Assembly: GCF_009497775.1 (NCBI RefSeq)
Contig: NZ_CP031012.1
Span: 3,100,001-3,164,000 of the forward strand
DNA from: Alcaligenes faecalis
GTDB lineage: Bacteria > Pseudomonadota > Gammaproteobacteria > Burkholderiales > Burkholderiaceae_B
Direction of reading: 5' to 3'
DNA: 64,000 nt
The notes below the pieces were generated by a model. That model was not told where the DNA came from. It ran no database searches and saw only the letters and a list, made by a program, of their open reading frames with translations. The position numbers were made by a program, and so were the translations under genes. This document shows positions 5,597-25,202 of this stretch, in pieces (within the stretch, counting starts at the first letter, position 1; each line of letters starts with the position of its first letter).

Positions 5597-8500
5597 ACAC
5601 CACCTCCCGTCCCGGCTTTACCGACTTGTTCGTTCGTCGGCCGGTACTTGCCCTGGTGGTCAGCGCCTTGCTCCTGATGTTGGGCCTGTTTTCCCTGGAC
5701 AAGCTGCCCATCCGGCAGTACCCCCTGCTGGAAAACTCCACCATCACAATTACCACCGAGTACCCCGGCGCCTCTGCACAGCTGATGCAAGGCTTTGTCA
5801 CCCAACCTATCGCCCAGGCTCTGGCCTCGGTCGAAGGGGTGGATTATCTGTCCTCCAACTCCGTGCAAAGCCGCAGTGTCGTGACCTTGCGCATGGAACT
5901 GAACCGCGACTCCACCCAGGCCCTGACGGAAGTCATGAGCAAGGTCAGCCAGGTGCGCTATCGCCTGCCTGAAGGCGCGTATGACCCGGTTGTGGAACGC
6001 TCCTCCGGGGACTCCACTGCCGTGGCCTATGTGGGCTTTTCCACAACATCGATCTCCATCCCGGAACTGAACGACTATCTGTCCCGCGTGGTGGAACCCA
6101 TGTTCTCCACCATTGACGGTGTGGCGAAGATTCAGACCTTTGGCGGTCAGAAACTGGCCATGCGACTGTGGCTGGATTCGGACCGCATGGCTGGCTATGG
6201 CCTGACCGCTGCCGATATTGCCCAGGCCGTGCGTGCCAACAACTACCAGGCCGCTCCCGGCATGGTCAAAGGCCAGCATGTCTTGAGCAATATTCAGCTC
6301 AACTCGGACCTGACCAGCGTGGCCGAATTTCAGGACCTGATCGTGCGTGAGGACGGCACCTCGCTGGTACGTCTGCGCGACATAGGCAAGGTGGAACTGG
6401 GTGCAGCAGCGACTGAAACCAGCGCCTTGATGGATGGCCTGCCCGCCATTCACCTGGGTTTGTTCCCTACTCCCGGCGGCAATCCCTTGCGCATTGTGGA
6501 AGGCATTCGTGATCGCCTGCCCGCTATTGAGGCGACCCTGCCACCCGGCGTGGAAGTGGCCCTGGCTTTTGAAACCGCCCGCTTCATTCAAGCCTCGATT
6601 GATGAGGTGCTGAAGACCCTGACCGAAGCCATGATTATCGTGGTGCTGGTGATTTACCTGTGCCTGGGCTCCTTCCGCAGTGTGCTGATTCCCCTGGCTA
6701 CTATCCCCTTGTCCATGCTGGGAGCCGCTGCCTTGATGCTGGCCTTTGGTTTCAGCATCAACTTGCTGACCTTGCTGGCCATGGTGCTGGCGATCGGGCT
6801 GGTCGTGGACGACGCGATTGTGGTGGTTGAAAACGTGCACCGTCATATTGCTGCCGGGCGTTCGCCCGTGGTGGCCGCCTTGCTGGGCGCACGTGAAGTA
6901 GCCGGCCCTGTGATCGCCATGACGCTGACCCTGGCTGCCGTCTATGCCCCGATTGGTCTGATGGGTGGCCTGACTGGAGCACTCTTCAAGGAGTTTGCCC
7001 TGACGCTGGCCGGTGCCGTGCTGGTATCCGGTGTAGTGGCCCTGACCCTGTCCCCGGTGATGAGTTCCTTGCTGCTGCCCTCGCAGCAAGATGAAGGCCG
7101 CATGGCGCACATGGCAGAGAGCTTCTTTGGGGGCCTGTCGGCCCGCTATGGTCGCTTGCTGGCACGTTCCTTGCGTCACCGCTGGATCACGGGTGCCATG
7201 GCCTTGCTGGTCTTTATCAGCCTGCCCGTACTCTATCAAATGACACACAGCGAACTGGCTCCCATTGAGGACCAGGCCAGCGTGCTGACAGCCGTGAAGG
7301 CTCCACAAAACGCCAACCTGGCCTACGCCGAACGCGACGGCAAGCTGCTGGATGACACCTATCGCCAAGTGAACGAAACCGAAAGCACCTGGTTGATTGT
7401 GGGTACGGACGGCCCGGCCGCCAGTTTTGGCGGGATCAACCTGAAGGACTGGAGCAAGCGCGAGCGCGATGCCAGCGCCGTACAGGGCGAGCTGCAAGGA
7501 CGTGTCAGCACCATTCCCGGCAGCAGCATCTTTGCTTTCCAGCTTGCCCCCTTGCCCGGCTCCAGCGGCGGTCTGCCCGTGCAGCTGGTACTGCGTAGTC
7601 CCGGCGATTACCGCACGGTGTACGACACAATGGAATGGGTCAAACAGCAAGCCCGTGAAAGCGGATTGTTTGTGGTGGTGGACAGTGACCTGGACTACAA
7701 CAAGCCCGTTTCCCGCGTCCAGATCGACCGCAGCAAAGCTGCCAGCATGGGCATCAGCCTGCGAGATATTGCCGACTCCCTGGCCGTGCTGGTGGGCGAG
7801 AACTACCTGAACCGCTTCTCGCTGGATGGTCGCTCCTATGACGTGATTCCGCAAAGCCAACGCGAACTGCGCCTGACGGCACAAGCACTGACGCGCCAGT
7901 TTGTACGCAGTGCCAATGGCGAACTGGTGCCCTTGTCGGCCATGGTTCAGATTCACAGCGAAGTGGAGCCCAACAGCCTGCGCCAATTCAACCAGCAAAA
8001 CTCGGCCACGCTGCAAGCCATTCCCGCACCGGGCGTAACGCTGGGACAAGCCGTTGGCTATCTGGACGAAATCGCGCGTCAATTGCCCGCAGGCTTTACG
8101 CATGACTGGCAATCGGAGTCGCGCCAATTCACCCAGGAAAGTCAGTCTCTGGTGTGGGCCTTCCTGGCCGCGCTGGTTGTGATTTATCTGGTGCTGGCCG
8201 CGCAGTACGAAAGCCTTGTGGACCCCATCATCATTCTGGTGACGGTGCCCTTGTCCCTGTGCGGTGCCCTGCTGCCCCTGGCACTGGGATTTGGCACGCT
8301 CAACATCTACACCCAGATAGGTCTGCTAACGCTGGTCGGCCTGATCAGCAAGCACGGTATTCTGATGGTGGAGTTTGCCAATGAGCTGCAATTCAAAGAA
8401 GGCCTGAAAAAGCCCGAAGCCATCTTGCAGGCCGCCCGCATTCGTTTGCGTCCTGTGCTGATGACAACCGGAGCCATGGTCTTTGGTCTGGTGCCTCTGC

Positions 8501-13880: not shown

Positions 13881-14741
13881 ATGACTTCTTCTTCTCGCGC
13901 CCAAATGGGTGCTATTGCCCTGTTCGTGCTGCTTTGGGGCAGCGCGGGTATTTTCACTCGTATCGGTTTGGATCATGGCTCGGTTATGGCCATGCTGATT
14001 CTGCGTTTTGCCATCGCCCTGCCTATGGTGATCGTGCTGGGTCACTTCAATGGCGGCTGGCTACCGCCTAAAGGGCAACGTCTGCTGCCTGCCATCAGCG
14101 GTTTGCTGATGATCGGGCTGTATTCGTTTTTCTATTTTGAAACCCTGGCCCAAGGGATCACACCGGGTCTGCTGGCCACGATTCTGGGTGTACAGCCAAT
14201 TCTGACTTTGGCGCTGACCGAGCGGCGTTTTTCCCTGACCCGTATGGCTGGTTTGGCCTTGTCTTTGACTGGCCTGATTCTGGTGGTTTATCAAAGCCTG
14301 ATTGTCAGCCGTTTGTCCGTGACAGGTCTGGTATTTGCAATTGCTGCTTTGTTAAGCATCACTGTCGGGACGATTGTTCAAAAGCGTCAGCCTGTGGGGG
14401 CCCTGCAAGGAATGCCTTTGCAGTACTCCTTGTCTCTGGGCTTGTTTATTCTGGTGTCCCTGGGCTTGGGACAGGAAATCCGCTGGGAGAACACGCTAGG
14501 CTTTTGGGGGCCGGTGGTATGGCTTGGCCTGGTGATTTCCGTGCTGGCCCAGTTGCTGTTGTATCGCATGATTCGCAGCGGGAATCTGGTCAATGTCACT
14601 AGCCTGTTTTATCTGGTGCCTGTGGTGACGGCGGGATTGGATTTTCTGATTCTGGGGAATACCTTGGCAGCTCGCGCAGGGCTGGGACTGGTGGCTATCT
14701 TGGCTGGTCTGTGGCTGACATTACGGAAGAAGGCGGCGTAA
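13881..14741 (+). CDS. EamA/DMT superfamily transporter
   Basis: Inner-membrane drug/metabolite transporter of 286 residues with about ten hydrophobic segments in two EamA repeats (about 8-140 and 150-280). Typical N-terminus FVLLWGSAGIFTRIGLDHGS; second-repeat marker is YLVPVVTAGLDFLILGNTL. Members export amino acids and other metabolites (RhtA, YdcZ types), but substrate cannot be read from sequence. The valine-rich leader ORF 86 bp upstream hints at branched-chain amino acid control. Downstream lies the first nested palindromic element. Confidence 0.88.
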   Translation: MTSSSRAQMGAIALFVLLWGSAGIFTRIGLDHGSVMAMLILRFAIALPMVIVLGHFNGGWLPPKGQRLLPAISGLLMIGLYSFFYFETLAQGITPGLLATILGVQPILTLALTERRFSLTRMAGLALSLTGLILVVYQSLIVSRLSVTGLVFAIAALLSITVGTIVQKRQPVGALQGMPLQYSLSLGLFILVSLGLGQEIRWENTLGFWGPVVWLGLVISVLAQLLLYRMIRSGNLVNVTSLFYLVPVVTAGLDFLILGNTLAARAGLGLVAILAGLWLTLRKKAA

Positions 14742-14816
14742 GTCTGCTTTTTATAAGTGGGGTTTCATAGAGAGTGAAATCGGTCTTTGAATGATGGGAT
14801 CGGTCTCCGTGAAGCC

Positions 14817-15045
14817 ACCACTTGGGGCCCTCTGCAGGGATTGGGCTGAGAACTTGCCGGTGCTGCGCACCGGTGCCCTTGTCAGGAGATAGCTACGGGC
14901 GCATCCTGAACTCGCCGGGTACTTGGTCCCCCGGACCAAGTACAAGCGTCCGGCTCAAACAGCAGGATGCTTGAACCCCTACGCTATCTCCTGACCGCGG
15001 CAAGTACTCTGATCCGCCCAATCCCTGCAGAGGGCCCCAAGTGGT
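14817..15045 (-). repeat. Nested palindromic element, copy A
   Basis: A 229-bp element, inverted relative to copies B and C. Outer arms 14817-14846 and 15016-15045 form a perfect 30-bp inverted repeat. Inside are a 13-bp stem (14881-14893 with 14983-14995), a side hairpin at 14857-14873 (7-bp stem, 3-nt loop) and a terminal hairpin at 14919-14943 (11-bp stem, CCC loop). The unpaired core shares the CTGCTGTTTGAGCC and GGCGAGTTCAG stretches with the other copies. It contains no convincing gene. Role unknown: structured RNA or non-autonomous repeat are both possible. Confidence 0.85.
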
Positions 15046-15448
15046 TCACAGTGATGCATATCCACGATTCAAGCTGGTTTACTTCCAAGATCCAAGTGCT
15101 CAGAGACAGATCGCAATGCCTAGATCTCTATTTTTTAGCAACCCTCGTCAAAACACCCCCTAAAAGCCCCTGACTTACGAGTTCTCGCTACAGATAGATG
15201 CCAATAATCAGCGTGTAAATACCGCAAGCATGCTGATCATCATTGATGATTACTTTTGGGCTTTTTTCAACTGGCCTCACTGCGCTCAATGGCAGTAACC
15301 CTTCAATCCATCTCAACAACTTGGCCAACAACAAGCCCTAAGCCCACCAAGCGCCAAGCCAAGGAACGCTAAAAAGCCCCCTGTCCTCTCTACAACCAGC
15401 ACTTTCTCCCGCCCCAAATCGGTTTTTTTATATTTCTCCGTTGTGAGT
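15046..15448. other. Intergenic spacer between palindromic elements A and B
   Basis: No supported gene. The edges carry degenerate continuations of the palindromes: a stretch near 15055-15090 weakly mirrors 14780-14815, and a TCGG plus T7 run at 15419-15429 mirrors the oxidase-operon terminator on the far side of copy B. Nothing else recognisable. Confidence 0.6.
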
Positions 15449-15678
15449 CGCTTGGGGGCCGGGTCCAGGGGGGTGGGCGATTCAGACTGCTTGCCGCAGG
15501 CGATGTCTTGATACGGGATACAAGCACTCTGCTGTTTGAGCCCGACGCTTGTGGTTTGTCCGGGGGACAAACCACCGGGCGAGTTCAGAGTGCGCCCGTA
15601 TCAAGACATCGACAAGGGCACCGATGCGCAGCATCGGCAAGTAGTCAAGCCCACCCCCCTGGACCCGGCCCCCAAGCG
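15449..15678 (+). repeat. Nested palindromic element, copy B
   Basis: A 230-bp element. Outer arms 15449-15478 and 15649-15678 are a perfect 30-bp inverted repeat unrelated in detail to the arms of copy C and only loosely like copy A. A second stem is 17 bp (15501-15517 with 15595-15611), the side hairpin is 15621-15637, and the terminal hairpin is 15551-15575 (11-bp stem, GGG loop). Paired flanks CTGCTTGCCG and CGGCAAGTAG close the middle. The stems differ from copy A by compensated base changes. Short open frames inside are artefacts of the palindrome. Confidence 0.87.
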
Positions 15679-15700
15679 GCGTCCCCACAGAGACTCTAAA

Positions 15701-15747
15701 CAAAAAAAAACCGACATCTCCAACCCTGGGGTCGGGCGAGATATCGG
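15701..15747 (-). terminator. Intrinsic terminator of the cbb3-like oxidase operon
   Basis: Reading on the minus strand, a 10-bp stem (CCGATATCTC with GAGATGTCGG, one wobble) is followed by nine T residues. It lies about 90 bp after the last oxidase gene and directly beside palindromic element B. Confidence 0.75.
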
Positions 15748-15835
15748 TTCAAAAGCCGGGGGCCTGTTCCCGGCGTGCTACCGTTTCAAAACGTGCTTCT
15801 AATTATTAATTCCAGAAGAACCAATCCCAGCCGCC

Positions 15836-16426
15836 TCAATGCGCCGCAATCCAGTCCTGCAGTTCCTTCTCTCCTTGCCAAGGCTGACTACGATCCACAC
15901 TGGCAGCCCGTGCCTCGGCCACAAACTCGGGGGTGATGGCATCCACCTCATTCCCCCACTCATGGCGAATAAAGCTCAACACAGCCGCCAGCTCCGCATC
16001 ATTGAACTGCTCTGCAAACGCAGGCATTGCCCCCTGATATTCCTGACCTTTCACCGTGATGGACCCGGTCACCCCATGCAGCACCAATTGCGCCAGCACC
16101 TTGGGTTCTCCCTTCACCCACTCTGAATCCGCCAAAGGAGGAAACACCCCCGGCAAACCTTGCCCCGTTGCCTGGTGGCACGCCACACAGGCATTGGCAT
16201 ACAACTGCTTGCCATCCGCAGATGCACTGCCAGGCGCTGGAGCCAGGACCGCCAAAGGTCGCTGATCCCCCAAACGAGGAGAGCTATTGGGCTGAGCCGA
16301 GACGATGTAATACACCGCCCAGGCCAGCAAGGCCAAAATCACCAGAATCACCACTCGCGGAACCGGGTTGTACTGCTCGTGGGGATCGGCATTCTCGCTT
16401 TGACGACTTTGCACAGGTCGGTTCAT
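15836..16426 (-). CDS. Membrane-anchored monohaem cytochrome c (third oxidase subunit)
   Basis: Protein of 196 residues with one N-terminal membrane anchor (VPRVVILVILALLAWAVYYIV) and one periplasmic cytochrome c domain containing CVACH near residue 85 and the axial Met in GAMPAF. It carries one haem, unlike the dihaem CcoP of classical cbb3 oxidases. It begins inside the last codons of the ccoO-like gene (4-bp overlap), so it is almost certainly part of the same enzyme and donates electrons to it. Last gene of the operon. Confidence 0.87.
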   Translation of the reverse strand: MNRPVQSRQSENADPHEQYNPVPRVVILVILALLAWAVYYIVSAQPNSSPRLGDQRPLAVLAPAPGSASADGKQLYANACVACHQATGQGLPGVFPPLADSEWVKGEPKVLAQLVLHGVTGSITVKGQEYQGAMPAFAEQFNDAELAAVLSFIRHEWGNEVDAITPEFVAEARAASVDRSQPWQGEKELQDWIAAH

Positions 16427-17031
16427 TCCTCACTCCCCACCACATCAGCACTCAAGATCGGATACACATGCTTGAGCGACTGCAAATACACCACCAGATC
16501 CAAAGCCTCCGGACGGGCCACCACAACTTTGCCCTCCGGTGCCACGCCCGGCGGCAAGCTCACGACGCGCTCATCAGGCTGCACCTGATCCGGGTTCTTG
16601 GCTTCAAACAGGAAACGATAGGGAGGCATATTGCTGCCCGGCGAGTAAGCACGCGGATCGTACAAGTGCCCCAAATGCCAATCCTGACTAGGTTGACGCA
16701 CACCAATATTGAACAGATCCGGCCCGGTACGCATGGTGCCCAGCAAAGGCGGATCGTCGTAGTGATAATCCCCCGCAACCGAAGCACGCCCCCAGCCACG
16801 GCTGGCGTCCGCCACACCTGCGCCCGTGGTACTGGGCTGCTGCGTGTGGCAGGTGATGCAGCCATTACCCCGATACACCGCCCGTCCCCGTAATTCCTGA
16901 CTGGTATAGGGCGACAAACCTTCCGGGGCTGGCTCGTCTTTCAACTGCAAAAAGGGCACCACAATCATGGCCGCTGTTGCCAGGGACAAGGTCACCATGG
17001 ACCCGATAATCAACTTCAGTTCGTTTTCCAT
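16423..17031 (-). CDS. ccoO: cbb3-type cytochrome oxidase subunit II (CcoO/FixO-like)
   Basis: Monohaem cytochrome c subunit of 202 residues: N-terminal membrane helix (LIIGSMVTLSLATAAMIVVPFL), then RAVYRGNGCITCHTQQ with the haem-binding CITCH near residue 58, and GPDLFNIGVR / WHLGHLYDPRAYSPGSNMPPYRF, conserved CcoO stretches including the axial Met. It passes electrons from the soluble pool toward subunit I. It sits 4 bp after the subunit I gene and overlaps the next cytochrome gene. Sequence is near-canonical CcoO, although the partner third subunit is not. Confidence 0.92.
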   Translation of the reverse strand: MENELKLIIGSMVTLSLATAAMIVVPFLQLKDEPAPEGLSPYTSQELRGRAVYRGNGCITCHTQQPSTTGAGVADASRGWGRASVAGDYHYDDPPLLGTMRTGPDLFNIGVRQPSQDWHLGHLYDPRAYSPGSNMPPYRFLFEAKNPDQVQPDERVVSLPPGVAPEGKVVVARPEALDLVVYLQSLKHVYPILSADVVGSEE

Positions 17032-17035
17032 GTCC

Positions 17036-18688
17036 TTAAACCTCCAGCTCAGCGCCAGGGCGCACCGCAGCCGAGCGGGACTCGGTCAGCGCAAACGCAC
17101 CCGACTTCACAATCATCAGCAATACGTGCAAGGCAAAGACCAGATGGCCCAGCGTCATCATGGCGCCGCCAATGGAACGGCCTTGCAGCCAGGGCATGGT
17201 GACCGCCACCGATTCCATAAAGCCACGGGCAGGATCCAGCAAGGCCAAACCTTGCAGCACGCCACCAATGCTGAGCGTGATCATGTAGACGGCAAAGCCA
17301 GCCACCACCAGCCAGAAGTGCCAGGAGATCAAGGCAGGACGGGGCCAGGCCGTGTTCAGAATGCGCGGCAAGGCAAAGTACACACCACCAAAAATCACCA
17401 TGCTCACAAAGCCATACATACCCAGATGAGCGTGAGCCACAGTGAAGTGCGTGAAGTGAGTAATGGAGTTCAACGAACGCAAGGCTTCAGCAGAACCTTG
17501 CAGGGACGCGACGGTGTACATCATGGCGCCAAAGACAATGAAACGCAGAACGGGCGAGTGACGCAGCGCACTGAAATGCCCCTTGAGCGTCAAGTGCTGG
17601 TTAGCCGAGAAGGCCAGCACCGGAATCACCATCATCATGCTTTGCACAATGGACAAGGTAATCAGCCATTCAGGGATAGGACCACCAATCAAATGGTGCG
17701 CCCCAACCTGTCCGTAGAAAAAGGCCAGCGTCCAGAAACCCAGCAGCGACAAGTTGTAGGAGCGCACAGGTCGTCCAATGACTTTGGGCAGGAAGTAGTA
17801 AATGGCGGCAATCGACATGGGTGTGTAGAACAAACCCAGGACGTTATGCCCGAACCACCAGTTCATGGTGGCTTGCTCCACCCCGAAGTGCACGCCAGGA
17901 ACCTTGGCCACCAGATACAGAATGGGGAACCAGAACAGCGCCGCACCGATGTACCAAACCGACACGTACAAGTGCTTGACCTTGCGTTGCGAGAGCATCA
18001 AGGCCAGTGGCATACCAATCATCATGCCGCCAAAGGCGAACAGCACGCCGATTTGCCAGGGGATTTCCAACCATTCCAGGCCCGCATTCAAACCAATGGC
18101 CAAAGCACCAATCCCCGCAACCAGCGCTGCGTTCCAGACCAGCCCGCCCACCATCACCAAACGACCACCCAACAAGGGGGTTTGCAGCAAGCGCGGCAAC
18201 ATCCAGATAGTCAGACCCAACAAACCCATGGGCGCCCAGCCATACGCCACGCCGTTCAGGTGAATCGTGCGCAGACGGCCAAAGCTCAACCAGGACACAT
18301 CACCCAGGAACTCGGGCCAGTGCAGTTTCAAGGAGCTGATCAGACCCGCAAACGAGGCCACCACCAGCCAGACCACCGCACAGACGATCAGCAAAAAAGC
18401 GGGCATGGAGCTGGAACGATCGGCCTGCTCACGCGCAGCCATTTCAAGCGCGCTGGTTTGCTGACCATGGTTCTCTGCAATATGGTCGGCCGCCGCCAGA
18501 CTTAGCGCCTGCCGTTGGGCAGCATCTGCCGAAGGTTCTTCGGGCTGGCCGATTTCGCCCTTGTGAAAAATAGTGCGTGCACCACTGACGTCAGCATCGA
18601 ACAGGCCCTTGCGCAAGGACCAGATAAAGGCAAAAAGCCCGGCAATCGACAGGATGAATGCGGCAAGCAAAAGCGCCGTCGGGTTCAT
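17036..18688 (-). CDS. ccoN: cbb3-like oxidase subunit I with CcoS-like N-terminal segment
   Basis: Haem-copper oxidase catalytic subunit of 550 residues. The core (about 95-540) has about 12 membrane helices with CcoN-like ligand regions: RTIHLNGVAYGW, WWFGHNVLGLFYTP, GAHHLIGGPIPEW and FTHFTVAHAHLGMYGF. The N-terminal 45 residues (a TM helix followed by FAFIWSLRKGLFDADVSG) resemble the small assembly protein CcoS/FixS, joined by a polar linker of about 45 residues. ATG at 18688 has an AGAGGA site. The enzyme reduces oxygen at the inner membrane, probably at low oxygen. No FNR box was recognised upstream. Confidence 0.88.
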   Translation of the reverse strand: MNPTALLLAAFILSIAGLFAFIWSLRKGLFDADVSGARTIFHKGEIGQPEEPSADAAQRQALSLAAADHIAENHGQQTSALEMAAREQADRSSSMPAFLLIVCAVVWLVVASFAGLISSLKLHWPEFLGDVSWLSFGRLRTIHLNGVAYGWAPMGLLGLTIWMLPRLLQTPLLGGRLVMVGGLVWNAALVAGIGALAIGLNAGLEWLEIPWQIGVLFAFGGMMIGMPLALMLSQRKVKHLYVSVWYIGAALFWFPILYLVAKVPGVHFGVEQATMNWWFGHNVLGLFYTPMSIAAIYYFLPKVIGRPVRSYNLSLLGFWTLAFFYGQVGAHHLIGGPIPEWLITLSIVQSMMMVIPVLAFSANQHLTLKGHFSALRHSPVLRFIVFGAMMYTVASLQGSAEALRSLNSITHFTHFTVAHAHLGMYGFVSMVIFGGVYFALPRILNTAWPRPALISWHFWLVVAGFAVYMITLSIGGVLQGLALLDPARGFMESVAVTMPWLQGRSIGGAMMTLGHLVFALHVLLMIVKSGAFALTESRSAAVRPGAELEV

Positions 18689-18802
18689 GGTATTCCTCTG
18701 ATTAGGTAAGGCCGCAGCCCGCAGGGGCACGGACGAAAACACCCGGCAAGGCTACCCGTCGGTACAGAGCATTCCAAGAATCAGTTAAAGCTTCAAAAAC
18801 CC

Positions 18803-18908
18803 TATCAGTTTGCTTGAAAGCCACGTAAATCGCGGTTTACTTGTGCTTGAAGGCATACCCATCAGATAATAAAAAAACTACATTTATCGAATTCACCGTA
18901 TCAGTTTG
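18803..18908. promoter_or_regulatory. Direct repeats upstream of the MocR gene
   Basis: TGCTTGAA(A/G)GC occurs at 18811-18821 and 18844-18854, exactly 33 bp apart, and TATCAGTTTG occurs at 18803-18812 and 18899-18908. MocR-type regulators such as GabR and PdxR are known to bind spaced direct repeats, so these are candidate operators for the adjacent regulator and possibly for the divergent oxidase operon. Confidence 0.45.
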
Positions 18909-18923
18909 AGTACAAAGGGCAGC

Positions 18924-20351
18924 ATGAAACTGTATGAGACTCTGGCCAAGGAGCTGGCCCAGGCCATTCTGGACGGCACCGTAGCGGCAGGCGAGCGCAT
19001 GCCTTCCGTGCGCCAATTGATGGATAAGCACAAGATCAGTGCATCAACGATTTTCCAGGCCTATTACCGTCTGGAAGCACAAGGCTTGATCCAGGCTCGC
19101 CCGCGTTCGGGCTATTACGTCTGCTCCAATCTGGCGCCTCATACATTGGAAGCGGACACCGCCTCCCAGCCGCCACTGCAAGCGACCAGTGTCAACAATA
19201 GCGACCTGATCATGGCGATCTTGCAATCCAGCTCCGAACGTTCCGTGGCGCCTTTGGGCTCCGCATTCCCCAGCCCCCTGCTCTTTCCGCTGGAACGGCT
19301 GGGCCGCTTCCTGTCTGCCAGTCTGAAGCAGCAAGATCCCTGGGCCAGTGTGGATGACCTGACCCAAGGCCACGCCCCCCTGCGCCGCCAGATTGCCTTG
19401 CGCTATCTGGCTCAGGGCATGGCCATCAATGCCAACGATATTGTGATTACCAACGGAGCACTGGAAGCGCTGAATCTGTGTCTGGCAGCGGTGACGCAAC
19501 CGGGTGACATTGTGCTGGTGGAATCGCCCACCTTTTACGCCGCCCTGCAGTCGCTGGAGCGCATGAAGCTGCAAGCACTGGAAGTACCCACCCATCCGCG
19601 TGAAGGCATTGATCTGGAAGCACTGGAACACGCCATCAAACAACACGCTCCCAAAGCCTGCTGGCTGATGACCAACTTCCAGAACCCGCTGGGCAGCCTG
19701 ATGCCCGACGCTAAAAAAGCCCAATTGGTCGAGCTGCTGGCCCGCTATGAAATCCCCTTGATCGAGGACGATGTTTACGGCGAGCTGTACTTCGACACAG
19801 AACGCCCCCGCCCCGCCAAAGCCTTTGACCGCCAGGGACTGGTGATGCACTGCTCCTCGTTCTCAAAAACCCTGGCACCCGGTTATCGCATCGGCTGGGC
19901 TGTGCCGGGACGCTATATACGTGAAGTCGCCCAGGCCAAACTGACCACCACCCTGACCTCTCCCGTCCCCACCCAACTGGCCCTGGCCAGCTATCTGGAA
20001 AAAGGCGCGTACGACCAGCACCTGCGCCGTTTACGCACTCAGCTAAAAAACCAGTATGGGCAGTTCTCCAAAGCCTTGGGACGCTACTTCCCCGCAGGCA
20101 CCCGGGCAACCCGCCCCGAGGGCGGCTACTTCTTGTGGGTAGAACTGGAAAAAAGCGTGCAGACCCTGGAGCTACATCGTCAAGCCCTGTCGCAAGGCAT
20201 CAGTCTGGCACCCGGCTCCATCTTTTCAACCACCCAGAATTACAGCCATTGCCTGCGTCTTAACTTTGGCCATCCCTGGACAGAGCACAGCGATCACGCG
20301 CTGGAAATTCTGGGTAATTTATGCCGACCATTGCCACTTAAAAAGTCATGA
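18924..20351 (+). CDS. MocR-family GntR/aminotransferase-like transcriptional regulator
   Basis: Regulator of 475 residues: an N-terminal GntR winged helix (about 1-70, AAGERMPSVRQLMDKHKISAS) fused to a fold-type I aminotransferase domain (about 105-465). PLP lysine in SSFSKTLAPGYRIGW is Lys315, with MTNFQNPLG and DDVYGELYF conserved. MocR proteins use PLP or its amino-acid adducts as ligand and control nearby metabolic genes. ATG at 18924 chosen (AAAGGG upstream) over a TTG at 18906. Target unknown: divergent oxidase genes, the downstream lipocalin-like gene, or itself. Confidence 0.9.
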   Translation: MKLYETLAKELAQAILDGTVAAGERMPSVRQLMDKHKISASTIFQAYYRLEAQGLIQARPRSGYYVCSNLAPHTLEADTASQPPLQATSVNNSDLIMAILQSSSERSVAPLGSAFPSPLLFPLERLGRFLSASLKQQDPWASVDDLTQGHAPLRRQIALRYLAQGMAINANDIVITNGALEALNLCLAAVTQPGDIVLVESPTFYAALQSLERMKLQALEVPTHPREGIDLEALEHAIKQHAPKACWLMTNFQNPLGSLMPDAKKAQLVELLARYEIPLIEDDVYGELYFDTERPRPAKAFDRQGLVMHCSSFSKTLAPGYRIGWAVPGRYIREVAQAKLTTTLTSPVPTQLALASYLEKGAYDQHLRRLRTQLKNQYGQFSKALGRYFPAGTRATRPEGGYFLWVELEKSVQTLELHRQALSQGISLAPGSIFSTTQNYSHCLRLNFGHPWTEHSDHALEILGNLCRPLPLKKS

Positions 20352-20467
20352 AACGTAGGGCCTGACGATAGAAAATAAGAATCGGCAAGTCGTTGAATAG
20401 CAAAAGAAAAGACAGCATGATGGCGCAGTTACACAACGCAACAACACTGTCTATTCAGGAGTTTTTG

Positions 20468-20893
20468 ATGGCCCATACCTTACGTAACAAGCTGATCGGT
20501 GTCTGGCAATTGGAGTCCTTTGAATTTGTTCCGGAAGATGGCTCGCCCAGCTATCCAGGCCTGGGCCCCAACCCCATCGGTCAGCTGATTTATACAGAAA
20601 CAGGTTATGTGGGGGCACAACTGTGCAACAGCAGCCGAACGGCACAAGACAGCAGTCAATCGCTACTGGATACCTACCTGGCTTACGCCGGTACTTTTGA
20701 AGTGGATGAAGCCGCCCAATGCGTTACCCACTTTGTTGATATGTCCCTGAACCCCGATTGGGTAGGCGTTCCCCAGCCACGTCTGGCGCGCTTTACCCAA
20801 GGCGCACTGGAACTGATCACCCGTGATCCCGTGGTCGTGGCAGGCAAGCTGGGAGTGGGCACCTTGCTGTGGCATCGCGCCGGACCAGTTTAA
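20468..20893 (+). CDS. Lipocalin-like domain protein
   Basis: Protein of 141 residues with the pattern of the lipocalin-like beta-barrel family: opening LIGVWQLESFEFVPEDG, then GQLIYTETGYVGAQL and a beta-rich remainder ending GTLLWHRAG. No signal peptide, so probably cytosolic. ATG at 20468 has AGGAG 6 nt upstream, while ATGs at 20393 and 20417 lack one and would add an unlike tail. Members are often found in polyketide or small-molecule clusters as binding or enzymatic barrels; nothing here fixes a ligand. Confidence 0.75.
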   Translation: MAHTLRNKLIGVWQLESFEFVPEDGSPSYPGLGPNPIGQLIYTETGYVGAQLCNSSRTAQDSSQSLLDTYLAYAGTFEVDEAAQCVTHFVDMSLNPDWVGVPQPRLARFTQGALELITRDPVVVAGKLGVGTLLWHRAGPV

Positions 20894-20934
20894 GCAAAAA
20901 CTCCGTGACCAGCGGCCAGCCTTTGCTGGCCGTT

Positions 20935-21858
20935 TCAGTTGTGAACCGCCTTATCCAGCAGGCCCAGAAAATAATCCACAATCGCATGAGCACGCCTGTC
21001 CTTGCGCATGGCCAAGGACAAGGGAATCGTGAACTGACGCTGCTGCGGGTCCACCGCAATCATCTGGCCCTTCTCCACCCAACGAGCCGCCACGTGCTCG
21101 GGCAAAAAGCCGATGTACTCCCCCGTCAAAATCAAAAAGGCGATCCCTTCCCGATCACTGGCGGTGGCCACACAATTCAAATCCTGATGCTGCCCGATCG
21201 CCTCCGGGCTCATGCGATAAGCAGGCGCAATGGCCGCAGCCCGGCGCAAGGCTTCCTGGGACACCGTCCCTTTTTGCACCGCTGCAAACAAAGGATGTTC
21301 CCAGGAGCAGTACAAAAAATAAGGCTCGGCATAGAGCGTGCGATACTCCAGCCCGCTCAAGGCATTGGTTTCGGGCAGCACGCCCATATGCAGACGACCA
21401 TCCAATAAACCGCGCTCAATTTCCCCCGGTGTACTCATGCTGATATGCACACGCACCGCCTCGCTGTTTTGCCGCAAGGCACGCAAGGCCGAGGTAATGT
21501 GCATATGAGGTTGCGAGATCAGGCTATTCATCAAACCTATATTCAAATCCCCCCGCAAGCTGGAGTGCAGTTGATTCACCTCACTGCGGAAATTCTCCAC
21601 GGCGGCCATCAAAGTTTCACTGGCCCGCAATACCTGCCGCCCTTCCTCCGTCAAGGCAAAACCCGCCCGGCCACGCTGGCACAGCCGGATTCCACCCAGG
21701 CGCTTTTCCAGATCGCTCATATGCAGGCTGATAGCCGAGCGCGTAATGCCCAGCACGCCTTCCGCGGCCGAAAAGCTGCCCACTTGCGCCACCGTTCTGA
21801 ACACACGCAGCAGACGCAAATCAAAATCGGAAACCTGCAAAAGTCCCTTGAATTGCAT
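20935..21858 (-). CDS. LysR family transcriptional regulator
   Basis: LysR-type regulator of 307 residues. The helix-turn-helix lies at about 10-65 (FDLRLLRVFRTVAQVGSFSAAEGVLGITRSAISLHMSDLEKRLG), followed by the linker helix and a two-lobed effector domain (about 95-300). The ATG at 21858 is assumed; the upstream extension to 21912 is hydrophobic and unlikely. It is divergent from the class III aminotransferase gene, 100 bp away, and is the natural candidate to control it. Effector unknown, perhaps an omega-amino acid. Confidence 0.9.
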   Translation of the reverse strand: MQFKGLLQVSDFDLRLLRVFRTVAQVGSFSAAEGVLGITRSAISLHMSDLEKRLGGIRLCQRGRAGFALTEEGRQVLRASETLMAAVENFRSEVNQLHSSLRGDLNIGLMNSLISQPHMHITSALRALRQNSEAVRVHISMSTPGEIERGLLDGRLHMGVLPETNALSGLEYRTLYAEPYFLYCSWEHPLFAAVQKGTVSQEALRRAAAIAPAYRMSPEAIGQHQDLNCVATASDREGIAFLILTGEYIGFLPEHVAARWVEKGQMIAVDPQQRQFTIPLSLAMRKDRRAHAIVDYFLGLLDKAVHN

Positions 21859-21958
21859 ATAGGTGAGTAAAACAATAAGTGAAGTTGAATAAAAACGTAT
21901 TTTACTCAACAACTTAGCTGCCTACACTGGGGGTATTCACCGCCTTGAGGAGACCACC

Positions 21959-23305
21959 GTGAACTCACCCTACTTTGCGCCACAGCAGATTACCAGTGAA
22001 CTCAATCTCCAGTCCCACTGGATGCCCTTTACCGCGAACCGGCACTTCCAGCAGGACCCGCGTCTGGTCGTCAAAGCCGAAGGCAACTGGCTGTACGACC
22101 AGGATGGCCGCCAGATCTTTGACAGCCTGTCCGGGCTTTGGACTTGCGGAGCCGGACACGCTCGTCATGAAATCCAGGCAGCCGTGCATCGTCAACTCGG
22201 GCAACTGGACTACTCCCCTGCCTTTCAGTTTGGACACCCCGCCGCATTTCAACTGGCCGACAAGCTGACGCAACACACCCCTGACGGACTGGATCACGTT
22301 TTCTTCACCAACTCCGGTTCTGAATGTACCGATACCGTCGTGAAGATGGTGCGGGCCTACTGGCGTATCAAAGGCCAGGCGACCAAGACCCGTTTGATTG
22401 GCCGTGCTCGTGGCTACCACGGCGTGAACGTAGCTGGCACCAGCCTGGGCGGCATAGGCGGCAACCGCAAAATGTTCGGCCAGTTGATGGATGCCGACCA
22501 CCTGCCCCACGTACTGCAAGCAGACTGCGCCTTCACACGCGGCCAGCCCGAAACAGGGGGCCTTACCCTGGCCGACGAACTGCTGAAACTGATCGAATTG
22601 CACGATGCCAGCACCATCGCCGCCGTTTTTGTCGAACCCGTCTCGGGCTCGGCAGGCGTACTGGTGCCGCCTACCGGCTACCTGCAACGCCTGCGCCAGA
22701 TTTGCGATCAGCACAACATCCTGCTGGTCTTTGATGAAGTCATCACCGGCCTGGGCCGCCTGGGCACCTACACCGGGGCCGAATACTTTGGCGTCACCCC
22801 CGACATCATGACCATGGCCAAGCAACTGACCAACGGGGCCATCCCTATGGGCGCGGTCGTTGCCAGCAAAGAAATCTACCAAACCTTCATGGGCCAGGAC
22901 TTGCCACTGCACGCCGTGGAATTCAGCCACGGCCACACCTACTCCGCCCACCCCGTCGCCTGCGCCGCCGGACTGGCTGCCCTGGAGTTGCTGGAACAAG
23001 ACAATCTGCTGCAACGCTCCGCCGACCTGGCTCCGCACTTCGAACAGGCCCTGCACCAACTGCGCGACAGCCCGAATGTCATCGACATCCGCAACTGCGG
23101 CCTGGCAGGCGCCATCCAACTGGCTCCCCGTAACGGCGACCCCGCTATCCGCCCCTTTGAAGCTGGTCTGCAACTGTGGAAACAAGGCTTTTACGTACGT
23201 TTTGGTGGCGACACCCTGCAATTTGGCCCCACCTTCACCAGCACACCCGCCCAGCTTGACTCACTCTTCGATGCCGTCGGTGGCGTCCTGAAGCAACTGG
23301 CCTAA
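21959..23305 (+). CDS. Class III omega-amino acid--pyruvate aminotransferase
   Basis: PLP-dependent class III aminotransferase of 448 residues, the beta-alanine/omega-amino acid:pyruvate type. Motifs: LSGLWTCGAGHAR, FTNSGSECTDT, RGYHGVNVAGTSLGG, VFDEVITGLGRLG and the PLP lysine in TMAKQLTNGAIPMG at Lys288. It likely converts beta-alanine or related omega-amines with pyruvate as acceptor. GTG start with GAGGAG at 21947-21952. Divergent from the LysR regulator. Exact amine donor not determinable. Confidence 0.92.
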   Translation: MNSPYFAPQQITSELNLQSHWMPFTANRHFQQDPRLVVKAEGNWLYDQDGRQIFDSLSGLWTCGAGHARHEIQAAVHRQLGQLDYSPAFQFGHPAAFQLADKLTQHTPDGLDHVFFTNSGSECTDTVVKMVRAYWRIKGQATKTRLIGRARGYHGVNVAGTSLGGIGGNRKMFGQLMDADHLPHVLQADCAFTRGQPETGGLTLADELLKLIELHDASTIAAVFVEPVSGSAGVLVPPTGYLQRLRQICDQHNILLVFDEVITGLGRLGTYTGAEYFGVTPDIMTMAKQLTNGAIPMGAVVASKEIYQTFMGQDLPLHAVEFSHGHTYSAHPVACAAGLAALELLEQDNLLQRSADLAPHFEQALHQLRDSPNVIDIRNCGLAGAIQLAPRNGDPAIRPFEAGLQLWKQGFYVRFGGDTLQFGPTFTSTPAQLDSLFDAVGGVLKQLA

Positions 23306-23463
23306 GCACTAAAAAGGCGGCCTGCCACGGGCCGCCCCAAAACCAGCCCCCGTCGTAGCAACTGGAAACCTTAACTTTCCCCCCAAGCTGTCCCCACAGC
23401 CTGCTCCAAACCTCACAAACGCGCCATAATACGAGCTTTGCTCCCCAAGAAACGTTCAGCGCC

Positions 23464-24300
23464 ATGAGTTCACCCACAACGCCCACCTTTGCTCAGGCCC
23501 CCATCGGCCTGTTTGACTCGGGCGTGGGCGGCCTGTCCATCTGGCGCGCCCTGCGCCAGTCCTTGCCCAATGAAAACCTGCTGTATCTGGCGGACTCACA
23601 ATGCGCCCCTTACGGCGACCGTTCCCCGGAATGGATCATCGAGCGCACCCAGCGCATGGCACAAGTGCTGGTCGACCAAGGTTGCAAAGCACTGGTCATC
23701 GCCTGCAACACCGCCACCCTGGTCGCCGCCCCGACCCTGCGCGCCACACTGAACATCCCCATCATCGCCATCGAACCGGCCATCAAACCCGCCGCCGCGC
23801 TGAGCCGCAGCCGTAGCGTCGCCCTGATGGCCACCAGCCGCACCCTGGACAGCAGCGGCCTGCAAAGCCTGATCGAACGCTACGCCAGCGACATAGAAGT
23901 CATCCGCATTCCCTGCCCCGGCCTGGCCGACCGCGTCGAAGCCCTGCAACTGAGCGGCCCGGAGATCGAAGCAGAACTACGCGAACGACTGGCCCCTGCC
24001 CTGCAAAGCCAGGCCGACACACTCGTGCTGGGCTGCACCCACTACCCCTTCCTGCGCCCCACCATCGAAGCCATCAGCGGCTCGCGCTTCCACATCCTGG
24101 AACCCTCCTTCGCCGTGGCCGCCCAAGTCCACCGCCGCCTGCAACAAGCCAACTGCCTGAACACCCAAACCCAAGCAGGCAACAGCGCCTTCATCAGCAG
24201 CGCCCCCATGGAGCAAGCCCAAAAAGTCATCCAAGTACTGACCGGGCTGGCAGAACCCACCATGCTGACATTCCCGACACAGCCGCTAAACGCACTGTAA
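23464..24300 (+). CDS. murI: Glutamate racemase MurI
   Basis: Cytosolic racemase of 278 residues making D-glutamate for peptidoglycan. It carries the two catalytic cysteines in IACNTAT (Cys81) and LGCTHYPF (Cys191), plus the N-terminal GLFDSGVGGLS and PYGDR motifs. Complete, family-length. ATG at 23464. Transcribed alone; preceded by a GC-rich inverted repeat after the aminotransferase gene and followed by the 900-bp gene-free stretch that holds palindromic element C. Confidence 0.95.
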   Translation: MSSPTTPTFAQAPIGLFDSGVGGLSIWRALRQSLPNENLLYLADSQCAPYGDRSPEWIIERTQRMAQVLVDQGCKALVIACNTATLVAAPTLRATLNIPIIAIEPAIKPAAALSRSRSVALMATSRTLDSSGLQSLIERYASDIEVIRIPCPGLADRVEALQLSGPEIEAELRERLAPALQSQADTLVLGCTHYPFLRPTIEAISGSRFHILEPSFAVAAQVHRRLQQANCLNTQTQAGNSAFISSAPMEQAQKVIQVLTGLAEPTMLTFPTQPLNAL

Positions 24301-24555
24301 AACCCGGCCGTCCTCCATCTCCCGATATATCCAATAAGAGCAGCTTGAATTGGCTGCTCTATCTGACTGACCTCTAGTTTCCGCTGCCCAGTTGCAGCCC
24401 TCCTCTTCCACCCCCTCCGATCAAGCCCACATCCGCATTGCGGTGATGCCGTGGAGCTGTGGAGCTGTGGAGCCTTTAAAAACCCCAGCCCTCACAACTC
24501 GAACGTCAATCCGCAGGACCAAAGATCCCAAGCATGCCTTCCCAAACCGTTGAGA
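24301..24555. other. Intergenic stretch after murI
   Basis: No gene supported. It has a hairpin (AGAGCAGC with GCTGCTCT, near 24338-24361) without a T run, possibly a weak terminator, and a short tandem repeat of GTGGAGCT (three units ending near 24473). Confidence 0.5.
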
Positions 24556-24793
24556 GCTGCTCAGGGTGCGGGCACAGGGGTCGCGGGGGCGAGTCAGACT
24601 ACTTGCCGCGGGCGGAGTATTGATCGGGGATGCAAGCGGCCTGCTGTTTGAGCCCGACGCTTGTGGTTTGTCCGGGGGACAAACCATCGGGCGAGTTCAG
24701 GCTGCGCCCCGATTGACACTCTGCCAAGGGCACCGACGCGCAGCGTCGGCAAGTAGTCCGCCCTGCGCCCCCTGTGCCCGCACCCCGAGCAGC
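24556..24793 (+). repeat. Nested palindromic element, copy C
   Basis: A 238-bp element in the same orientation as copy B. Outer arms (24556-24591 and 24759-24793) pair over about 33 bp with a few mismatches and a sequence unlike copies A and B. The middle stem joins 24611-24629 and 24707-24725 through 15 standard pairs, three G-T wobbles and one mismatch. The side hairpin is 24733-24749 and the terminal hairpin 24663-24687. The core is near-identical to copy B. Open frames inside appear to be artefacts. Confidence 0.85.
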
Positions 24794-25202
24794 GGCCTAC
24801 GAAGAATGCCCCCGGCAATCCTCCCCTCATCTGCCCCCATCAAGCCCCCCCGAGCCTGCCCCCCACCCTCAACCCAAACCTCAAACCCAACAAACTTTGA
24901 ACCTAAAGCACAAAAAAATCGCTCAAAACCCGCCATCCCCCTCCCCCCGTAACAAACCATCCATCAACCCGCCACATCCCCGCCAAGCCGCAGCCCGCCA
25001 CCACTCTCCCCCCTGCCCATCTCCCCAGAACCAGCCCACCACATAAAACACAATCCAATCATCGGCGGATTTGCTGATCCGTTCACAGGGCAGTCATACG
25101 CCCTTCCTACACTGCCCGCAGTCCTGATCCGATGCCGACTGGGCAGCCCACCCCCACGCACAGTCCGGCCTCTCTTTCCACCTTCTCTCCTCGAGTGGCT
25201 GT
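24794..25202. other. C-rich intergenic stretch before the LamG lipoprotein gene
   Basis: Strongly strand-biased, C- and A-rich on the plus strand, with many CCCC and AAACC tracts. No gene is supported. A short CGGCGGATTTGCTGATCCG dyad lies near 25061-25081. Composition would suit a C-rich Rho-dependent region, but that is only a guess. Confidence 0.4.

Follow-up and report, generated by a model that had tools for sequence, protein, structure and literature searches.

What kind of molecule is a large, branched palindrome kept for when it recurs between genes? The question is raised by a window of 64,000 nucleotides from Alcaligenes faecalis (positions 3100001-3164000 of NZ_CP031012.1, a single 4,159,911-base contig), which holds three intergenic elements that we call E1, E2 and E3. 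A sequence-only reading of the window had claimed that the three share one architecture, that pairing is kept while the sequence changes, and that this points to selection on structure, either as RNA or as single-stranded DNA. We find a real family without an Rfam match that behaves like a strand-specific boundary element at the ends of genes, and a folded single strand of one orientation is under selection.

E2 (15449..15678, plus strand; window positions throughout) was read directly, serves as our orientation reference and has orthologs in genomes G002, G003, G004, G007 and G008 (G and L numbers are our handles for genomes and loci). Its outer stem P1 pairs 15449..15478 with 15649..15678 over 30 bp with no mismatch. 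Further in, the middle stem P4 pairs 15501..15517 with 15595..15611 and has been replaced as a block in some orthologs. The inner rod P5-P6-P7 (15524..15593) carries the conserved internal loops CTGTTTGA/GAGTT and ACGCTT and ends in a GGG loop (15562-15564), and the side hairpin P3 (15621..15637) reads CCGATGC-GCA-GCATCGG. E1 (14817..15045), also read directly and with a family match at 3114842-3115020 (L044), is inverted relative to E2; its sense strand is the minus strand, and its P1 pairs the 5' arm at 15016..15045 with the 3' arm at 14817..14846, again 30 bp without a mismatch. E3 (~24558..24791, plus strand, direct orientation; L029) was likewise found by direct reading. The 403-bp spacer between E1 and E2 (15046-15448) has no called gene, and part of it is absent in G008. 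Reading and alignment bear out the claim of three intergenic elements with a common architecture: outer stem, middle stem, side hairpin, terminal hairpin and conserved unpaired stretches all align. The same is true of its finer detail, as the side hairpins CCGGTGC, CCGATGC and CCGACGC each have matching partners around a GCA loop, and the terminal hairpin is GTACTTGGTCC or GTGGTTTGTCC, each with its own partner. The core pattern CTGTTTGAGCCSGACGCTTG, allowing up to three mismatches, occurs three times in the window, against a mean of 0.01 in 100 shuffles.

A search of the same genome with E2 found 29 places that match 153-230 of its 230 bases, and one further partial copy of 87 bases. Of the other two matches, one is of E2 with its reverse complement and one covers just 24 bases. 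Seventeen of the 29 copies lie within 3.06-3.74 Mb, an interval picked post hoc. We left out L050, which is identical to L049, and aligned the other 28 copies, which have one fold in common. P1 is near-perfect, specific to each copy and 29-38 bp long (median 32, by an ungapped rule). Inward of it come a conserved internal loop and then a short stem leading to the junction that bears the side hairpin. P4 is also copy-specific, and beyond it lies the inner rod, made of three helices; its conserved loops are ATGCAA, CTGTTTGA/GAGTT and ACGCTT. The rod is capped by GGG in 27 of the 28 copies and the side-hairpin loop is GCA in 26; hairpin loops mostly have three bases. We rejected an extra outer stem beyond P1 as part of the consensus, because it exceeded the 95th percentile of wrong-partner controls in only 8 of the 28 copies. 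Short tandem repeats (GAAGAAG, TTGCTTGC, GGTTGGTT, CAACTACAACTA, GTGACGTG) adjoin several elements, an observation made with no background count; they flank L033, L036, L043, L045, L028 and L041, and E3 in G007, G008 and G009.

In this much larger set of copies, structure is indeed kept under sequence change. Standard pairs make up 95.9% of the 2,266 pair cells of the 28-copy alignment, compared with 72.9% after shuffling of the 3' letters and 34-44% with slid partners, and both sides have changed in 62 of 81 pairs compared with 45.4 in shuffles; the structure was derived from the alignment that scored it, which favours the structure. The covariation that the sequence-only reading had proposed to look for in a larger alignment is therefore strong, as counted with two controls rather than R-scape. 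Comparing arms directly needs no multiple alignment: the median score of P1 arms is 30.0 against their own partner and 7.0 against the partners of other copies, and for P4 arms it is 14.2 and 5.0. The top swapped-partner scores (31.0 for P1, 19.0 for P4) reach the own-partner range, as expected for close copies.

Part of the change looks stepwise. At E1 and its orthologs, one pair reads CTGCAG/CTGCAG in G000, CTACAG/CTGCAG in G003 (a G.U pair on the sense strand) and CTACAG/CTGTAG in G002. This series of G-C, G.U and A-U is as expected of compensatory change caught midway, in either direction. Stems also diversify by exchange of whole inner blocks between copies. At the E2 site, three groups of genomes (G000/G003, G008 and G002/G004/G007) have the outer stem in common but differ blockwise in the middle stem and in parts of the inner rod, and E1 of G007 has the same inner 107 bases as L039, a copy at another site in our own genome. 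The inner block of G004 was matched in no own copy, and the 79-base inner block of E1 from G003 had no match in the other fetched loci. In P5 of the G003 E1, one arm is of the new type and the other of the old type, with one mismatch left. A contiguous exchange swaps both arms at once and so inflates covariation. Selection on structure stands, but the covariation counts cannot be taken as independent compensations.

Mismatches tell us which strand is selected. A folded single strand tolerates G.U but not A.C, and its opposite strand swaps the two. We aligned stem arms by Watson-Crick identity only, so that neither mismatch type was favoured, in 28 own, 44 same-genus and 59 other-genus copies (7 stems were not found and 17 repeats were left out). 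On the E2-sense strand, the 123 distinct P1 stems have 96 G.U, 13 A.C and 93 other mismatches, and the 115 distinct P4 stems have 86, 7 and 34. Together this is 182 G.U against 20 A.C; same-genus copies include orthologs, so these counts are not fully independent, and within the 59 other-genus copies the ratios are 54:6 (P1) and 52:4 (P4). These numbers supersede an earlier gapped local alignment of P1 that ran into the loops (G.U/A.C of 44/16 for own, 49/23 for genus and 68/32 for other-genus copies) and was replaced by ungapped stems. The G.U excess means that the selected structure is carried by the sense strand, which adds the acting strand to the earlier claim of selection on RNA or single-stranded DNA structure, itself supported. 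The asymmetry fits RNA or one strand of single-stranded DNA alike. With respect to replication, the sense strand runs opposite to fork movement in 20 of the 29 own copies, or 15 against 4 by subtraction of the five close pairs described below, a bias to which gene orientation could contribute.

The copies sit at the ends of genes. With genes called by our own codon-based caller rather than taken from the official annotation, and with open reading frames (ORFs) inside the element ignored, 0 of 131 copies overlap a called gene. Among the 115 copies with both neighbours called, 80 lie between convergent genes and 3 between divergent ones; the tandem cases divide into 19 with the next gene running against the sense strand and 13 with it running along. 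Position is thus convergent or tandem in 112 of the 115. Background gaps of at least 40 bp in 20 sampled stretches (n=188) gave 28 convergent, 120 tandem and 40 divergent. A neighbour was uncalled for 16 of the 131 copies, two of them beside ribosomal RNA (rRNA) operons: L033 (L084 ~6240-6451) and L036 (L085 ~5958-6171) are upstream of two such operons and point away from them.

Like E1 and E2, copies often come in head-to-head pairs. All five pairs within 1.5 kb in the own genome have this orientation, as do 25 of 28 other fetched loci with two copies at most 1.5 kb apart (five being E1-E2 orthologs); two Noviherbaspirillum pairs (L163, L169) are oriented the other way and L280 is a tandem pair. 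In L113, from another genus, a head-to-head pair (1501-1625, minus, and 2643-2762, plus) has PaaA2-like and ParE-like genes between its copies (2021-2536), and L170 has a gene of the TraY/ribbon-helix-helix (RHH) type in that place. These assignments come from scanning three small between-pair ORFs, which gave PaaA2-, ParE- and TraY/RHH-type matches. We saw no autonomous transposase among the ORFs read by eye between the copies of the head-to-head pairs L113, L155 and L170 and of L147, a wide tail-to-tail pair enclosing a long ORF that was not scanned against a library.

What follows the element is also one-stranded. The base fractions of the sense-strand 3' flank are 0.33 A, 0.34 C, 0.17 G and 0.17 T in 21 own copies, a set that excludes those whose flanks contain a second element or whose neighbours include an uncalled one. 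C exceeds G in 21/21 own, 27/28 genus and 36/44 other-genus copies over the three contexts, and in all 12 copies whose two neighbours both run in the sense direction. Flanks of gene ends that have no element are unskewed, both convergent (29 with C>G, 29 with C<G, 4 equal; n=62) and tandem (61, 56 and 4; n=121). We applied a rule resembling that for Rho utilization (rut) sites, as composition and C-spacing only. Of 129 3' flanks (two of the 131 copies had no flank), 110 satisfy it when read on the sense strand and 15 when read on the antisense strand. The 3' flanks of E1, E2 and E3 are rut-like on the sense strand only. That of E1 (14742..14816, minus) reaches the stop of an EamA-type transporter gene (13905-14741), and the 140-base flank tested runs into this gene. 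That of E2 (15679..15835, plus) contains an A-run and ends at a convergent cytochrome c-type gene (15836-16426, minus); it passes with a modest excess of C over G (39 vs 30). That of E3 (24792..25000, plus) is C/A-rich, with 64 C and 16 G in 140 bases. An intrinsic terminator, in which a GC-rich hairpin runs straight into a T-run, was rejected, as none was found at 14700-15900, and by eye there is no T-run directly at the sense 3' ends.

We next compared the sites between genomes. Remnants of E3, mainly its 3' half, are present at its site in G001 and G002, and no recognisable copy is there in G009. In G009 the 3' parts of E1 and E2 are joined by a deletion between their side hairpins. At the L030 site, G007 is without ~500 bp of element and flanking spacer. 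At the L041 site, the spacer of G008 is shorter and of another kind, and in G003 the left half is replaced by other DNA (L320 ~417-800), which ends within the element's terminal loop and contains a frame that looks, by eye rather than by a profile test, like the end of an IS110-type transposase. No clean insertion or target duplication was seen at the sites compared, where we found deletions, remnants and changed spacers instead. What was seen is loss, exchange and rearrangement. A segmental duplication of 6.7 kb in the own genome (L081:5315-12020 and L083:8213-14926, 96% identical) starts ~30 bases before P1 of the L049/L050 element and includes an ORF of 1130 amino acids that is autotransporter-like by eye only.

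The family extends beyond the genus. The sequence-only reading had suggested a model search of relatives, and a core model, R1 (the inner 128 nt), with at most 12 candidates scored per genome, matched 70 of the 268 GTDB-family genomes, which fall in 23 of the 43 genera. G006, of the same genus, had no R1 match, and A. faecalis AU14 gave a 147-bit match to the family model. In thinner samples, R1 matched 6 of 399 genomes at the level of the order, including 3 that belong to other families, and 3 of 369 at the level of the class, including 2 from other orders. These counts are probably lower bounds, given the strict filters and a model based on the genus. A degenerate pattern matched at least 117 stretches in named genomes, and many of the 80 listed look like chance. 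Of 50 loci scored, 45 picked by eye from those 80 and 5 from earlier work, 27 reached an R1 E-value of 0.01 (22/45 and 5/5), a rate that is not independent of the choice. Second copies were found by R1 alone, for example in L151 and L218. Weaker forms of the family occur in other Proteobacteria, and the core loops (CTGTTTGAGC / GAGTT, GCGCCC) are still present in other families and orders, where the stems have drifted. By eye, 13 of 23 folded distant loci have an additional hairpin on the 3' side, of the type ...CTTTTCTTTGG/CCAAAGAAAAG.... We rejected carriage on plasmids or phages, since a blastn search with E2 had no match in 72,556 plasmid or 50,697 phage records; a Thiobacillus member has one 44-base match on a Variovorax replicon.

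Is this a known system under another name? The sequence-only reading had left room for a known family to explain the pattern, and no Rfam family covers the element. At the gathering level, Rfam 15 had no family over it in the whole window and 15 distant loci, and permissive searches of window positions 14700-15850 and ten distant loci gave weak or off-element matches only, so we rejected a known Rfam RNA. One match to sRNA-Xcc1 (RF02221), at L124:2724-2817, is 1.1 kb from a distant family member and is a separate place and a separate model. Repetitive extragenic palindromic (REP) sequences and bacterial interspersed mosaic elements (BIMEs), of the GTAG- and CGTC-tagged, RAYT/TIRYT-linked families, lie mostly downstream of genes, and the position between convergent or tandem genes is shared by the family (112/115). 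Our family also resembles them, as PMC3733652 describes them, in being palindromic, multicopy, extragenic and often paired. However, REPs are single palindromes of 20-40 bp, and the family is ~230 nt, branched and multi-helical, with variable stems around conserved loops. The RAYT-type domain Y1_Tnp (PF01797) had no match in the 9 same-genus genomes, the only recombinase or transposase family searched for, while a control search found it in 5 of 14 genomes; we therefore rejected mobilisation by RAYT/Y1. Miniature inverted-repeat transposable elements (MITEs) such as NEMIS, ERIC and RUP are similarly non-coding, dispersed and 70-300 bp long (size range from PMC3733652). But MITEs share terminal inverted repeats, whereas the arms here are copy-specific (median identity of 0.5 between P1 left arms). 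No target-site duplication was seen at the sites compared, which show deletions, remnants or changed spacers. By the features tested, the family is not REP, and it is without the shared terminal repeats of a MITE. The elements may be among the predictions of RepRanger (PMC12306157), which scanned genomes for palindromic elements and tabulates A. faecalis among them; its text passages, tables and supplements aside, mention no 230-nt family or shared fold in Alcaligenes. Searches by sequence string and topic gave no paper describing the family among the matches listed.

There is a functional likeness to Rho-dependent terminators. The family has a C-rich, G-poor tract after a stable stem, in keeping with the unstructured C>G region of a rut site as far as composition and C-spacing go, on a strand for which we infer transcription. 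The stem is conserved, dispersed and of fixed architecture, unlike Rho-dependent terminators, and rut regions are not known to share such a fold. Our best reading, which we hold tentatively and at a little short of an even chance, is an RNA-level boundary element with Rho-dependent termination downstream and a fold that protects the new 3' end. The element would be copied whenever polymerase ran on past the end of an adjacent gene or began transcribing in the intergenic region. The nascent RNA, in the E2 orientation, would fold to a long rod with a side hairpin and continue into a C-rich, G-poor, poorly structured tail that would make a good loading site for Rho. Rho would halt polymerase before the next gene, usually a convergent one, sparing it antisense transcription, and exonucleases would trim the tail to the 31-bp stem, which would remain as a protected 3' end; a head-to-head pair would act in both directions. 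PMC9927376 describes Rho-terminated 3' ends as without secondary structure and trimmed by exonucleases. The internal loops may bind a protein or make tertiary contacts. Of this picture, we have demonstrated the fold, its selection on one strand, the location at gene ends, the head-to-head pairs and the one-sided 3' flank, whereas transcription, the action of Rho and the role of the loops are inferred.

Several points weigh against this reading. Our rut-like rule is a simplified form of a published one, and 5' flanks follow it too (83/129 sense, 47/129 antisense). The upstream regions of 25 aligned copies contain no clear promoter motif, and a scan confined to the surroundings of E1 and E2 gave no promoter-like site. 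The two copies at rRNA operons, L033 and L036, break the gene-end rule. Tandem copies have no bias towards the sense of the upstream gene (13 along, 19 against), which means that the element is not simply a cis element of the preceding gene. Three-base loops are more typical of stable DNA hairpins than of RNA ones. Lastly, conservation of the internal loops from genus to genus is more than a generic boundary hairpin would require.

One rival is a noncoding RNA, multicopy and stand-alone, that has its own promoter and whose internal loops are read by a protein or RNA partner. In its favour, the core loops are kept across families and orders that differ in their stems. P1 is also preceded, at a distance of 10-14 bases, by a weak A/T patch (0.3-0.45 bits in the best columns of the 25 copies), where a -10 box would be if the RNA started at P1. 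With this patch alone and no clear motif we rejected an own sigma-70 promoter; ~30 copies at gene ends would be unusual for such an RNA, and G006 has no match. We consider this rival rather unlikely. We also judge unlikely a one-strand DNA hairpin of a mobile element, with non-autonomous copies, head-to-head pairs as its ends and a putative recombinase that would recognise the folded single-stranded DNA. Single-stranded DNA favours G.T over A.C in one strand too and would fit 182:20, three-base loops suit stable DNA hairpins, and the lack of a clear promoter motif and the indifference to the sense of tandem genes favour DNA over RNA. The copies are dispersed and often paired, the L113 pair flanks PaaA2-like and ParE-like genes, and the 6.7-kb duplication begins close to an element. 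But such an element would have to be reconciled with the PF01797 result (one recombinase family searched), the plasmid and phage results and sites that differ by partial deletions, remnants and changed spacers rather than clean insertions. The sense strand opposite to the fork in 20 of 29 copies is also the reverse of what a hairpin on the lagging template would lead us to expect, with gene orientation as a possible cause. Functionless DNA palindromes, whose perfect pairing would come from template switching and ectopic gene conversion, would account for inner-block exchange between copies. However, two-strand repair does not yield a 182:20 G.U bias on one strand, and the one-strand 3' flank and conserved loops would be left over; this explanation was already disfavoured and we regard it as very improbable. 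Between RNA and DNA we lean towards RNA, on the rut-like 3' flank and the replication orientation, without considering the matter settled.

In a broader picture, which we regard as a doubtful possibility, the family would be a new and widespread class of structured RNA in Beta- and Gammaproteobacteria, with tens of copies in some genomes and a dedicated factor that reads its loops. It would insulate convergent genes through controlled termination and 3'-end protection, and its stems would diversify by stepwise compensation and block exchange. Structured repeats at gene ends are common, and whether they act as RNA or DNA usually stays unresolved; here the acting strand can be read directly from the sequence, through the asymmetry of mismatches and the one-strand flank. 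The family also carries a warning that covariation in repeat families can partly stem from block exchange between copies. With ~30 copies, natural pairs and, in G006, a genome of the same genus that lacks a match, the family lends itself well to studying how convergent transcription is kept separate.

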